From NCBI RefSeq assembly GCF_003369835.1, contig NZ_QPMJ01000001.1:1421589-1485588 (forward strand): a stretch of 64,000 nucleotides of DNA, in the 5' to 3' direction. The stretch comes from Halorussus rarus. GTDB lineage: Archaea; Halobacteriota; Halobacteria; Halobacteriales; Haladaptataceae. Shown here piece after piece: positions 11,700-31,360 of the stretch; the first letter of the stretch is position 1; each line of letters starts with the position of its first letter. A program made the position numbers and the translations under genes. The notes beneath the pieces were generated by a model. It was not told the DNA's origin. It did not search any database and saw nothing but the letters and a program-made list of their open reading frames with translations.

Positions 11700-12659
11700 A
11701 TGAAGCTACGCAGAGTGTTGGCCGGCGCGGCGGGCGGACTGGGAGCCGCAGTACTCGGGAACCGACTGCTGTCGTGGAAGGCGAACGACCTCCAGTCCGC
11801 GCTGGAGGGCGACCAGCGGACCTACCGCTGGCGAGGGTTCGACGTGGCCTACACCGAGGCGGGCGACCCGGACGACCCGGACGTGCTCCTGCTGCACGGG
11901 GTCCACGCCGCCGCGTCGAGCAAGGAGTTCGACCAGATATTCGACCAGCTCGCGAAGACATACCACGTGATCGCGCCCGACCTGCCCGGGTTCGGGCGGT
12001 CGGACCGGCCGCCGCTGACCTACTCGGCGGCGCTTTACACCGCCTTCGTCACCGACTTCGCCGAGGACCTGACCGAGGACGCCGCCTGCGTGGCGACGTC
12101 GCTGTCGGGCGCGTACGCCGCGCTGGCCCAGCAGCAGTCCCACGCGTTCTCGCGGCTGGTCCTCGTCGCGCCGACCGCCGACACCGGCCCGCGCCGGACC
12201 TGGCTCCGGTCGCTGTTCCGGTCGCCCGTGGTCGGCCAGGCGCTGTTCAACCTCCTGACCAGCAAGCGGTCGCTCCACTTCTTCGACAACCGCGAGGCGT
12301 ACTCGACCGAGGCATCCTACACCGAGCGGGACGTCGACTACCAGTGGCAGACCAGCCACCAGCCCGGCGCGCGGTTCGCGCCCGCCTCGTTCGTCTCGGG
12401 GTACCTCGATCCCGACGTGGACCTCGGGGACGAACTGGCCCGAACCGACGTCCCGGTCACCATCGTCTGGGGACGGGACGCGACGGTCTCGCCGCTGGAG
12501 GATGGCGAGGAACTGGCCGAGAAGGCGGACACCAAGCTGGTGGTGTTCGACGACGCCAAACTGCTCCCACACGCCGAGCACCCGGGGCCGTTCCTCGACG
12601 TGCTGCTCGACGAACTGACCGAGGAGGAGATGGAGACCGAACCCGGCGCGGAGACCTGA
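11700..12659 (+). CDS. alpha/beta-fold hydrolase
   Basis: 319 residues. The N-terminus (LRRVLAGAAGGLGAAVLGN) is a short hydrophobic segment that may be a membrane anchor. Typical hydrolase features follow: the oxyanion motif LLHGVHAAASS, DLPGFGRSDRPPLTYSAALY, a nucleophile elbow in ATSLSGAYAALA (Ser), an acid in VWGRDATVSPLE and a His in LLPHAEHPGPFLDVL. The substrate is not predictable. It has its own start 51 bases after the peptidase stop, on the same strand. Confidence 0.85.
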   Translation: MKLRRVLAGAAGGLGAAVLGNRLLSWKANDLQSALEGDQRTYRWRGFDVAYTEAGDPDDPDVLLLHGVHAAASSKEFDQIFDQLAKTYHVIAPDLPGFGRSDRPPLTYSAALYTAFVTDFAEDLTEDAACVATSLSGAYAALAQQQSHAFSRLVLVAPTADTGPRRTWLRSLFRSPVVGQALFNLLTSKRSLHFFDNREAYSTEASYTERDVDYQWQTSHQPGARFAPASFVSGYLDPDVDLGDELARTDVPVTIVWGRDATVSPLEDGEELAEKADTKLVVFDDAKLLPHAEHPGPFLDVLLDELTEEEMETEPGAET

Positions 12660-12704
12660 GAGGCCGGGCGGTAGCGGACTCCTTACGAGAGTTTCGGCGA
12701 GGGC

Positions 12705-13112
12705 TCAGCAGGTCCGCAGGACCAGCACGCGCTCGCCCGAAGTCTCGGTCTCGGCGACCTCGGCGGTGACCTCGGTGCCGACTGCGACGTCCTCGGGGTC
12801 GACACCGCGGACCTGGCCGGTCAGTCGGACGCCGCCGAAGTCCGCGACCGCCGTGACGTAGGGCGCGTCCTCGGCGAACGAGGGCGCGGCGACGTGGACC
12901 GTGGTGTGGGTCTCGATCTCGCCGGTCTCGGGTAGCGGGACCTCTTCGAGGTCGGTCGCGCCGCAGTGCGGGCAGACCCGCCGGGGCGGGAGCGACCCGT
13001 GACCCTCGGGGCACTCCAGGTAGAACCCCTCGCCCGACTCGACGGCGTCGAGGAAGTCGTCGTACCCCTCGTCGCGGACGCGTTCGGCCCCGCCGCCGGT
13101 TTCGTCGTTCAT
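12705..13112 (-). CDS. DUF35 zinc-ribbon/OB-fold thiolase partner
   Basis: 135 residues with the rubredoxin-like zinc ribbon (CPEGHGSLPPRRVCPHCG: Cys pairs near residues 34, 48 and 51) followed by an OB fold. In archaea DUF35 proteins bind CoA and bridge thiolase to a partner acyltransferase. It overlaps the stop of the thiolase gene by 4 bases (13109-13112), which fits translation as a stoichiometric pair. Confidence 0.9.
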   Translation of the reverse strand: MNDETGGGAERVRDEGYDDFLDAVESGEGFYLECPEGHGSLPPRRVCPHCGATDLEEVPLPETGEIETHTTVHVAAPSFAEDAPYVTAVADFGGVRLTGQVRGVDPEDVAVGTEVTAEVAETETSGERVLVLRTC

Positions 13113-29643: not shown

Positions 29644-30384
29644 TCAGCGGTCGCGCAGCTTGTGGCGGAACGCCCGGAGCGCGTCCGCGCCGGTGTCGGT
29701 GAGCGTCACCTGCTTGCGGCGGCCGACGTCCTCGACCGCGATGTAGCCGTCCTCGAGCAGCGGGTCGACGACGTTGGCGTTGAGGAGCGCGAACTTCGCC
29801 TTGTCGTTGGCCGGTTCGTTGTCGGTGACGAACGCCAGGTCCTCCTCCTCGGCGTACTCGATGATGTCCTTCTTCTTGACGGTCCGGACCGCCGAGTTCG
29901 CGTCGGCGAGGAAGTCCATCACCGCGACCTGGTCGGTCGTCGGCGACTCGATGGGGTACGACGGCAGCACCTCGTCGCCCTCGTAGCCGGTGCTGTGGCG
30001 CCGGTCGTCGTCGGGATACTCCTCGGGGTGGACGTAGTAGGCGGTCGCGTCGGTGGCCATGCACGCGATGGCCGCACCGACCGCCGCGAGCTTCGACCCG
30101 GTCGAGACGTTCACCCGGACGATGTCGTCGGCGTGGTCGGCGGTCAGCGTGGTCACGACCCCCAGCACGTCGTAGATGTCGAAGACGTCCACGCTCCGGG
30201 TCCGGACCGCGACAGGGAGATCGGCCAGGTCCGACCGGAGGTCGTCGTGGAAGTCGGGACCGGCGCCGGGGTCGTCGTGTTCGAGGAGGTAGAGCACGTC
30301 GACGTTGTGCCTCCGGGCCGGACCGACGATGCGGTCGTGCTCGAAGCCGAGCGGGGCGATGTGGACCTCGTCTATCGTCTGCAT
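29644..30384 (-). CDS. CARF-like sensor with winged helix, HFX_2341 (DUF6293) family
   Basis: 246 residues. The N-terminal Rossmann-like domain has HIAPLGFEHDRIVGPA and VNVSTGSKLAAVGAAIACMA, the latter resembling the nucleotide-pocket loop of CARF domains. The C-terminal part is a winged helix (KKKDIIEYAEEEDLAF, then EDVGRRKQVTLTDTGADAL). Haloarchaeal HFX_2341-type regulators have this layout. In CRISPR settings the same fold senses cyclic oligoadenylates; no cas gene or CRISPR array is seen here. Probably a cytosolic one-component transcription regulator of unknown ligand. Confidence 0.8.
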   Translation of the reverse strand: MQTIDEVHIAPLGFEHDRIVGPARRHNVDVLYLLEHDDPGAGPDFHDDLRSDLADLPVAVRTRSVDVFDIYDVLGVVTTLTADHADDIVRVNVSTGSKLAAVGAAIACMATDATAYYVHPEEYPDDDRRHSTGYEGDEVLPSYPIESPTTDQVAVMDFLADANSAVRTVKKKDIIEYAEEEDLAFVTDNEPANDKAKFALLNANVVDPLLEDGYIAVEDVGRRKQVTLTDTGADALRAFRHKLRDR

Positions 30385-30733
30385 GGCGGGCTGTCTTCGA
30401 TGGGTCGTCGAGAGGACTTAAATTCTCAGTCTCTGCTCGGCGCGATGTGGATGCGACTAACCGACTGCGAGGTAGCACCAGAGGCTGTCCGAGTAGAAGG
30501 AACTACTGAGAAAGCCCCGACCGCTCGCGGTCGCTGACCGACATACCCTCCGCCCCCTGCGTTCGCTCCGGATAGGGGTCGGTCAGACGACCACGGGCCT
30601 CCGGCCCGCGAGCGGTCGGCCCCTTTCATCCACCCGAACCTGGACTGTAGTGCCGAGCATCGCCGTTGGACTGTCGGACTACGTCGACGATTGCGGACGG
30701 TCTTCGAGTACGGAAAGCGACCGTCGCACGCAC
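30385..30733. other. 349-bp non-coding region holding a palindromic element
   Basis: No gene is supported. From 30385 it holds the promoter region of the CARF-like gene (AT-rich ACTTAAATTCTC at about 30416-30427). The middle is the nested palindrome at 30510-30627 described separately. The rest, 30628-30733, shows nothing recognisable before the RAD55-like stop. Confidence 0.5.
30510..30627. repeat. nested palindromic element (about 118 bp)
   Basis: Outer arms share CCGACCGCTCGCGG (30517-30530) and its complement CCGCGAGCGGTCGG (30606-30619), extended on both outer sides by GAAAG (30510) and CTTTC (to 30627). Inside are a second perfect inverted repeat CTGACCGAC (30534-30542)/GTCGGTCAG (30578-30586) and a small hairpin CGGGCC-TCC-GGCCCG (30594-30608). 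The whole could fold as a branched cruciform. No transposase is encoded. It looks like a MITE- or REP-like element, or the structured end of an IS200/IS605-type insertion; other copies must be sought outside the window. Confidence 0.55.
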
Positions 30734-31360
30734 TCACGCGATGTCGCGGCTCGTGTCGATGCGGACCGATTCGGCGAGTTCGAGCTTGATGGTCTCGGGG
30801 AGCGCCCGCCCGCCGCGGAACTTCGGCACCGCCAGCCGAGTCTCGACCGTGTCGCCGGAGTACTCGGTGTGGAGCTGGAACACCACGTCGGCGACGTGCT
30901 CGGTCACGTCCCGGGCGTCGGGCACCGACCGGCCGTCGAGGCAGTGGAGGATCGCGACCCCCTCGGTGTTGTGGAGGTGGTTCTGGAGGTCGTTGAGGAA
31001 GTTGCGGTACCGGCCGTCGCCCTGGCGCTCCAGCAGGTCGACCGAGTCGACCACCAGATTCGAGTCCTCGGGCAGCCGTCGGAAGAGCCGCTGGGAGTGG
31101 TCCAGCGGCGCGTCGCCCTCCACGCGGCGGACGTCCGGGGAACCGGTGCGTCCCGGCGCGCGCTCCAGGGCCTCGGACACCGCGGACTCGTCGCGGTCGG
31201 TCGAGAGGTAGAGCGTCTGGCGGGCCGACGTGAACTCGTAGAGCAGCAGCTCGGCCTGGCTCGCCGGCGGCGCCGAGAGCGCGACGATGCTCCCGGTCGG
31301 GAGGCCGCCGTCCAGTTTGCGGTCTAACACGTCGATCCCCGTCGAGAGGCGCCGTGACAC
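30734..31360 (-). CDS. RAD55/KaiC-like ATPase-fold protein lacking Walker A
   Basis: 208 residues. It opens LSTGIDVLDRKLDGGLPTGS, the signature of RAD55/KaiC-family proteins, and continues IVALSAPPASQAELLLYEF, where GxxGxGKT should be. The P-loop Gly and Lys-Thr are absent. The Walker B-like strand SNLVVDSVDLL is kept, as is a later strand GVAILHCLDG. The protein may bind but not hydrolyse nucleotide, or act only as a partner. It lies 27 bases after a MinD-like ATPase on the same strand and is likely cotranscribed. Confidence 0.8.
   Translation of the reverse strand: MSRRLSTGIDVLDRKLDGGLPTGSIVALSAPPASQAELLLYEFTSARQTLYLSTDRDESAVSEALERAPGRTGSPDVRRVEGDAPLDHSQRLFRRLPEDSNLVVDSVDLLERQGDGRYRNFLNDLQNHLHNTEGVAILHCLDGRSVPDARDVTEHVADVVFQLHTEYSGDTVETRLAVPKFRGGRALPETIKLELAESVRIDTSRDIA

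Follow-up and report, generated by a model that had tools for sequence, protein, structure and literature searches.

The bcr1 repeat of Bacillus cereus has a conserved fold and has been described as an RNA-forming repeat. It is listed among the bacterial MITEs, and the CGTC REPs have no dedicated transposase (PMC3733652). The MITEs, PATEs and SMRs of Haloquadratum walsbyi are transposase-free mobile repeats; PATEs carry near-terminal IS605-type palindromes and no terminal repeats, and SMRs have terminal inverted repeats, make no target duplication and depend on a mobiliser that was called enigmatic (PMC3119063). Structured sites are also known where DNA is handled as a single strand. The sso1 of ICEBs1 was recognised by being 76% identical to a rolling-circle plasmid's sso (PMC4595007). 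Frpo promoters are found in leading regions, where they lie upstream of ssb genes (PMC11541004). In the betapleolipovirus SNJ2, the structure of the Rep-Arvir origin hairpin is essential and a mutation that preserves the hairpin is without effect (PMC13107129). An earlier description of the repeat analysed here was not found in the open literature, outside which most subscription journals lie, and the literature searched held no single-strand origin or promoter of haloarchaeal conjugative plasmids.

The element lies in a 64,000-nucleotide stretch of Halorussus rarus DNA, the window. An earlier note had described, between a CARF-like and a RAD55-like gene, a perfect 14-bp inverted repeat extended by GAAAG/CTTTC and enclosing a 9-bp inverted repeat and a third hairpin; all of these parts and the placement were confirmed (Table 1). 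The extension is set off from the basal stem by an internal loop, in which the window copy has one C fewer on the 5' side, giving CC/CCC instead of CCC/CCC. The branched fold that the note had expected proved to be a three-way junction. Folded as RNA, the element reached −73.1 kcal/mol on the + strand (z −7.1) and −76.8 kcal/mol on the − strand (z −4.8); as DNA, the + strand gave −43 (z −6.9). Of 200 dinucleotide shuffles, not one folded as well, either as RNA on the two strands or as DNA on the + strand, and the stability on which the note had made its claim depend thus exceeds that of shuffled controls. Open reading frames cross the element, yet gene calling by codon composition and acidity places no gene there, as the note had held, and the two neighbouring genes are on the same strand. 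Rfam searches with the element gave noise only, both at the gathering threshold and at E 10. The window contains no match in a tRNA/tmRNA search, a phage search returned nothing for the element, and pattern scans of IMG/VR yielded two matches that are not the element.

Table 1. The element in the window, its parts and its neighbours, with the second plasmid module discussed in the text (window positions unless a locus is named).
Feature	Position	Strand	Basis
Core element, three-way-junction palindrome GAAAG ... CTTTCA	30510..30628	+	fold, genomic copies, covariance model
Left flank, weakly conserved, family consensus G.GAAGACGTTCTC	30496..30509	+	aligned copies
Outer stem, 5' side GAAAG; partner CTTTC 30623-30627 (helix 1)	30510..30514	+	pairs in 97% of the cells of 81 distinct copies
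Unpaired Cs, 5' half of CCC/CCC internal loop	30515..30516	+	fold and consensus
Basal stem, 5' arm; partner 30606-30619	30517..30530	+	perfect 14-bp inverted repeat
Foot of inner arm GGTCG; partner CGACC 30588-30592 at junction	30529..30533	+	fold, alignment helix 3
Inner stem, 5' arm; partner 30578-30586	30534..30542	+	9-bp inverted repeat
Apical hairpin, consensus CATATCC...GGATAG	30543..30577	+	alignment helices 4-6
Third junction hairpin GGGCC-TCC-GGCCC	30595..30607	+	fold
Unpaired CCC, 3' half of conserved internal loop	30620..30622	+	fold and consensus
Conserved right flank A(G)TCCACCC	30628..30635	+	information content of 36 aligned copies; seen in other genera too
About 1.5 right-hand units, 26-bp spacing (TGGACTGT ... 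CCGAGC)	30641..30690	+	weak here
CARF-like regulator gene (Pfam HFX_2341_N and DUF6293_C)	29644..30384	-	context only
RAD55/KaiC-like gene (DUF7125)	30734..31360	-	context only
Second structured module, candidate single-strand origin	L254:1695-1847; L277, just downstream of the element at 12605-12720; L278:205-343; L279:2727-2902

The search for further copies that the note had proposed showed the element to be a multi-copy repeat. BLAST gave 48 matches in its own genome, corresponding to about 40 distinct places. A covariance model built from 27 copies (R1) matched the window copy at 30509-30635 with 110.7 bits and also returned 48 matches in this genome at E 0.01, of which 27 are full-length with scores above 88 bits. 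Across 18 Halorussus genomes the number of copies at E 1e-6, counted among the best 150 or fewer candidates scored per genome, ranges from 0 and 1 to 41 (this genome), 102 and at least 140. When the best 18 or fewer candidates were scored per genome, 76 of 195 Halobacteriales genomes contained a match to the covariance model, and all 11 matching genomes in a phylum sample of 295 belong to the same order. In these order and phylum samples, relatives of the element were thus found only within Halobacteriales. Mean identity among copies is 0.79; the copies are old relative to each other.

The gene arrangements around the copies, taken from a simple gene caller that was checked by eye on this window, are mixed (16 −/−, 11 +/+, 6 convergent and 2 divergent). 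The copies checked are intergenic, three of them also lying inside a competing long ORF, and like REPs they are numerous and clustered as mosaics. They stand singly between unrelated genes and are not clustered behind cassettes next to an integrase, a scatter unlike that of integron attC sites. Runs tests on the best-scoring copies detected no significant replication-type strand runs along contigs (pooled P 0.30); the skewed contigs are contig 1 of G008, with 10 of 11 copies on one strand, and contig 1 of G006, with 18 of 24. Two loci on contigs 5 and 10 of G011 (L212 and L213) share a stretch of 1,525 bp, element included, at 100% identity; either a larger segment was duplicated recently or the assembly produced the identity. 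At L051 an inverted pair of copies lies between the same genes (1409-1531 on the + strand and 1701-1823 on the − strand), about 170 bp apart.

Comparison of the copies revealed a mosaic of left half-units, a core, inserted hairpins and right-hand units. On the left, the flanks share a weak 14-nt motif, and several copies have tandem left half-units (GAAAGCCCCCGCCCGGTCGCTACG, about 25 nt, then GAAGAACGCCTC). In many copies the right flank A(G)TCCACCC is followed by clear tandem 27-bp units with CGGTG...CACCGAGCGC. The smallest cores are single hairpins of 36-46 bp that retain GAAAG-CCC...CCC-CTTTCA, the standard junction comes next in size, and the largest copies reach 263 bp through extra hairpins inserted in a loop or a flank. 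The third junction hairpin varies in length and in many copies is missing or reduced to a short loop. Two separate hairpin modules occur inside copies (CACCGGAAGACG...GAGACGG and GTCTCCGAAAATCGGAGA...); module-bearing copies are L038, L039, L050, L059, L060 and L067, and L056, L062 and L063. One module is inserted twice in L060, producing hairpins nested in hairpins. Directly after the copies at L003, L047, L051, L053, L056 and L061, the right flank holds a further repeat, CCTCACACCTCCCCAGCCTCCTGCGCT...CGTCCCTCGC.

The note had named empty sites as a check on mobility, and a single conserved copy at the orthologous place in relatives as the finding that would point instead to an RNA or a terminator. 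In the spacer between the RAD55-like and CARF-like genes, this genome and G008 carry the element, G010 has a remnant with an internal deletion, in the same orientation and with flanks matching G008, and G004 has at most a relic of one end. In the other relatives that have both genes in place, the spacer is without it. Since the element is multi-copy and dispersed and the orthologous spacer is mostly empty, it is not a single conserved RNA or terminator. The flanks of seven further copies were searched in five relatives. Contiguous spacers free of the element were found at four sites (L002, L004, L041 and L045), for each of them in one or two relatives; the L041 site is occupied in G008 and G010, and the L007 site in G008. 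Element-free orthologous spacers were therefore seen, but no exact empty site was resolved among the species compared, because the intergenic spacers have diverged too far between species for the insertion points to be read. The element is dispersed and dispensable, and its presence and absence at orthologous sites suggest that it has moved. The same G008 spacer also holds about 0.7 kb resembling a transposase insertion beside the hairpin element (L154:720-1480). The CARF-like gene of Halorussus aquaticus and that of G004 each match in two overlapping pieces in different frames (L069:5844-6577; L164, L165), which suggests a frameshift or a sequencing error.

The fold is conserved to a much greater extent than the sequence. 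Alignments of 81 distinct Halorussus copies and of 30 copies from other genera were fitted to the covariance model. In the former, 97.1% of stem cells hold standard pairs and double changes occur at 25 of 40 pairs, in 287 cells versus 75.6 after shuffling; pairing falls to 32-44% when the structure is slid along the alignment. The copies from other genera gave 95.9% pairing and 22 pairs with double changes (143 cells versus 42). Free folding of a MAFFT alignment with RNAalifold recovered the same helices. The inner stem is the helix with the most variation and the most covariation, the basal stem (helix 2) covaries at 7 of 12 pairs in the 81 copies, and one-sided pair steps are rare. The CCC/CCC internal loop is unpaired and is kept by nearly all copies, including the minimal ones.

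A selected RNA should tolerate G-U pairs, which a DNA hairpin need not do. Among 3228 cells, G-U was found 47 times and A-C 33 times; a single junction pair has G-U in a quarter of the copies, and with this pair left out the counts are 27 and 32. Ten tRNAs from the same loci, used as a control, gave 10 G-U and no A-C (Fisher p 0.001). The double changes are of the Watson-Crick type and, unlike in tRNAs, G-U is no commoner than A-C, which indicates that it is DNA in folded form, and not an RNA, that has been conserved. Copies at the same site in two species share their orientation at all five sites tested and are no more alike than random copies; they differ by 3-7 compensated pairs versus 0-3 single changes. 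The simplest interpretation is that the fold is under selection where it stands. Double changes could also arise without selection, through template-switch correction of palindromes, but this should erase the CCC/CCC mismatch as well, which nearly all copies retain.

Outside Halorussus, the element recurs at a defined place on plasmids. On three Haloarcula plasmids (pNG500, that of JP-L23 and H. pelagica unnamed2) and two Haladaptatus plasmids (DYSN1 unnamed2 and H. salinisoli unnamed6) it lies 0.4-1 kb upstream, on the same strand, of OB-fold genes whose products are homologous between the genera (blastp 1e-11 or better). In Haloarcula its place is constant: on plasmids of 100-130 kb such as pNG500 it occupies a non-coding gap of 1.2 kb, some 0.5 kb upstream of and on the same strand as a gene annotated 'SOSS complex subunit B'. 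Genes for a T4SS coupling protein and for conjugal transfer follow a few kb away. Haloarcula sp. JP-L23 and H. pelagica have the gene order of pNG500. All three have a T4SS coupling protein and a PF03432 or annotated relaxase nearby. On the Haladaptatus plasmids the distances are 0.4 and 1 kb, and sub-threshold Pfam matches suggest an OB domain in the protein. DNA immediately past the Haloarcula element is 71-76% identical to a non-coding part of two small plasmids, pNB101 and pHLAJ5II, which we take to replicate by the rolling-circle mode. A second structured non-coding module (CTCGCCGGAACGAGG...TTCCGGG...CTTTCACCCATCCGGCAC...GATGGGACCGCC; Table 1) is common to the Haloarcula conjugative plasmids, pNB101 and pHLAJ5II, and is itself a candidate for a single-strand origin. 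The linkage to SSB-like genes is recurrent and not universal, because four other plasmid-borne copies outside Halorussus lie away from such genes, one of them near primase genes. Most copies have no SSB, relaxase or T4SS genes in their vicinity; this holds for the window copy and for the majority of the other plasmid-borne copies. A search of Halorussus SSB-like loci for a source copy returned weak matches, none of them convincing. Structure and orientation kept together on replicons that transfer single-stranded DNA, as expected of a single-strand origin or promoter, were found for the Haloarcula and Haladaptatus plasmid copies only and not for chromosomal ones.

The best explanation, in which our confidence stops a little short of even, is a haloarchaea-wide, non-autonomous interspersed repeat that is recognised as folded single-stranded DNA and spread by a strand-processing enzyme. 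What is conserved would be one DNA strand in its folded form, with a three-way junction carried by a basal stem that the CCC/CCC loop interrupts, and with A(G)TCCCACCC after it. Such a fold could form whenever one strand is exposed, during replication or during rolling-circle or conjugative transfer, and would be recognised by an enzyme such as an HUH relaxase/Rep or a primase. The same relaxase/Rep-like enzyme or primase may also spread the element. If so, the element would act in cis on conjugative plasmids as a site where single strands are processed, whether as the start of the second strand, in transfer or as a single-strand promoter. Copies in chromosomes would have been inserted through a single-stranded intermediate. 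A bolder version, which we consider doubtful, holds that the element represents a new class of archaeal cis-acting ssDNA structure, namely a plasmid single-strand origin, promoter or transfer site that escaped into chromosomes, is moved by a relaxase-like enzyme and is still selected in every copy to fold as DNA.

The note's small mobile repeat stood as far as a dispersed, non-coding, multi-copy palindromic element is concerned; the classes it had offered, an IS200/IS605 end, a REP or a classical MITE, were not supported. A classical MITE would be an internal-deletion derivative of a DDE transposon moved in trans through its terminal inverted repeats. The element is short and non-coding, its ends are inverted as in MITEs, and its many copies are dispersed and absent at orthologous sites. 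At the ends of 81 copies, however, direct repeats are no longer than those of shuffled flanks. Some MITE families make no target-site duplication; the arms of the element also vary freely if pairing is kept, unlike transposase-bound terminal repeats, and the transposase sharing the ends that the note had asked for did not emerge, as none recurs within 1.5 kb of 100 loci. No recurrent neighbour protein qualifies as an autonomous partner at these loci, the shared neighbours being orthologous host genes. We therefore regard a MITE origin as highly improbable. Movement by a Y1 HUH transposase, with the element an IS200/IS605 or REP/RAYT derivative similar to PATEs, is very unlikely as well. It would accommodate a hairpin with mismatched bases near a conserved flank and the lack of target duplication, PATEs are known in haloarchaea (PMC3119063), and Y1_Tnp is present in 10 of the 18 Halorussus genomes. 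Against it, Y1 transposase (PF01797) was found neither in this genome nor in G001, G002, G003, G010 and G011, six genomes with 28-102 copies each, by a search that was positive in Haloferax volcanii and others, so an IS200 end or REP-type repeat is not supported; a Y1 transposase may have been present in these genomes in the past. In place of the 20-40-bp palindrome with GTAG/CGTC tag typical of REPs, the element has the consensus GAAAG/CTTTCA(G)TCC over about 120 nt, even the minimal 36-46-bp copies are without the tag, and the architecture is a three-way junction, not a set of single hairpins near the ends.

A multi-copy structured non-coding RNA family or untranslated-region element would also suit the strongly conserved, covarying secondary structure and the one junction pair rich in G-U. 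That G-U is elsewhere not favoured over A-C, that Rfam holds no match, that orientation relative to genes is not fixed and that some species are without the element all make an RNA very improbable. Greater weight, although still on the unlikely side, is given to an archaeal chromosomal repeat of the REP/BIME or bcr1 kind, whose mobilising transposase has been lost or escaped recognition. Its copies would be kept as DNA structures, either cruciforms or hairpins of the lagging strand, that have a part in the nucleoid or at gene boundaries, and the plasmid copies would be ordinary members. The intergenic position of the checked copies in every gene arrangement, the mosaic build, the evolution of copies in place with the fold kept and the very different copy numbers between species are all consistent with such a repeat. 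It leaves unexplained, when taken alone, why plasmids from two genera repeatedly carry the element upstream of SSB-like genes that are homologous, and no binding protein is known here.

The element resembles REP/BIME in being intergenic and palindromic, in its tens to hundreds of copies and in its mosaics (PMC3733652), and like the CGTC REPs it is without a dedicated transposase found (PMC3733652). It differs in its length of about 120 nt, three-way junction, CCC/CCC loop, lack of GTAG/CGTC tag and RAYT, and in belonging to an archaeal order. With bcr1 it has in common a non-coding mobile repeat of 100-200 bp with conserved secondary structure, confined to one group; bcr1 is described as RNA-forming, whereas the element keeps to Watson-Crick pairs only, as DNA would, and is spread over a whole order. 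Terminal inverted repeats and the lack of target duplication are SMR-like, but SMR copies are nearly identical and those of the element about 79% identical, the two being compared by description (PMC3119063).

With sso1 (PMC4595007) and ssi/Frpo (PMC11541004) the element shares a structured non-coding site on conjugative elements, conservation of fold over sequence and proximity to SSB and relaxase genes, and in Haloarcula the neighbouring DNA held in common with small plasmids parallels the identity of sso1 to a rolling-circle plasmid (PMC4595007). It is unlike sso, ssi and Frpo in its tens of dispersed chromosomal copies; bacterial −10/−35 signals are not expected, and a corresponding function in archaea is what we infer. 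The SNJ2 origin is a single hairpin of about 22 nt downstream of a rep gene, whereas the element is a 120-nt junction with no adjacent rep gene. The ratio of G-U to A-C provides a clean case for telling DNA-level from RNA-level structural selection. The element behaves like REP/BIME and the Haloquadratum SMRs, yet it has no REP tag, is not associated with Y1 and shows none of the duplications looked for in a MITE. An order-wide repeat conserved in fold and not in sequence, standing beside plasmid SSB-like genes of two genera, is a concrete candidate both for a plasmid single-strand site and for the enigmatic mobilisation of SMRs.
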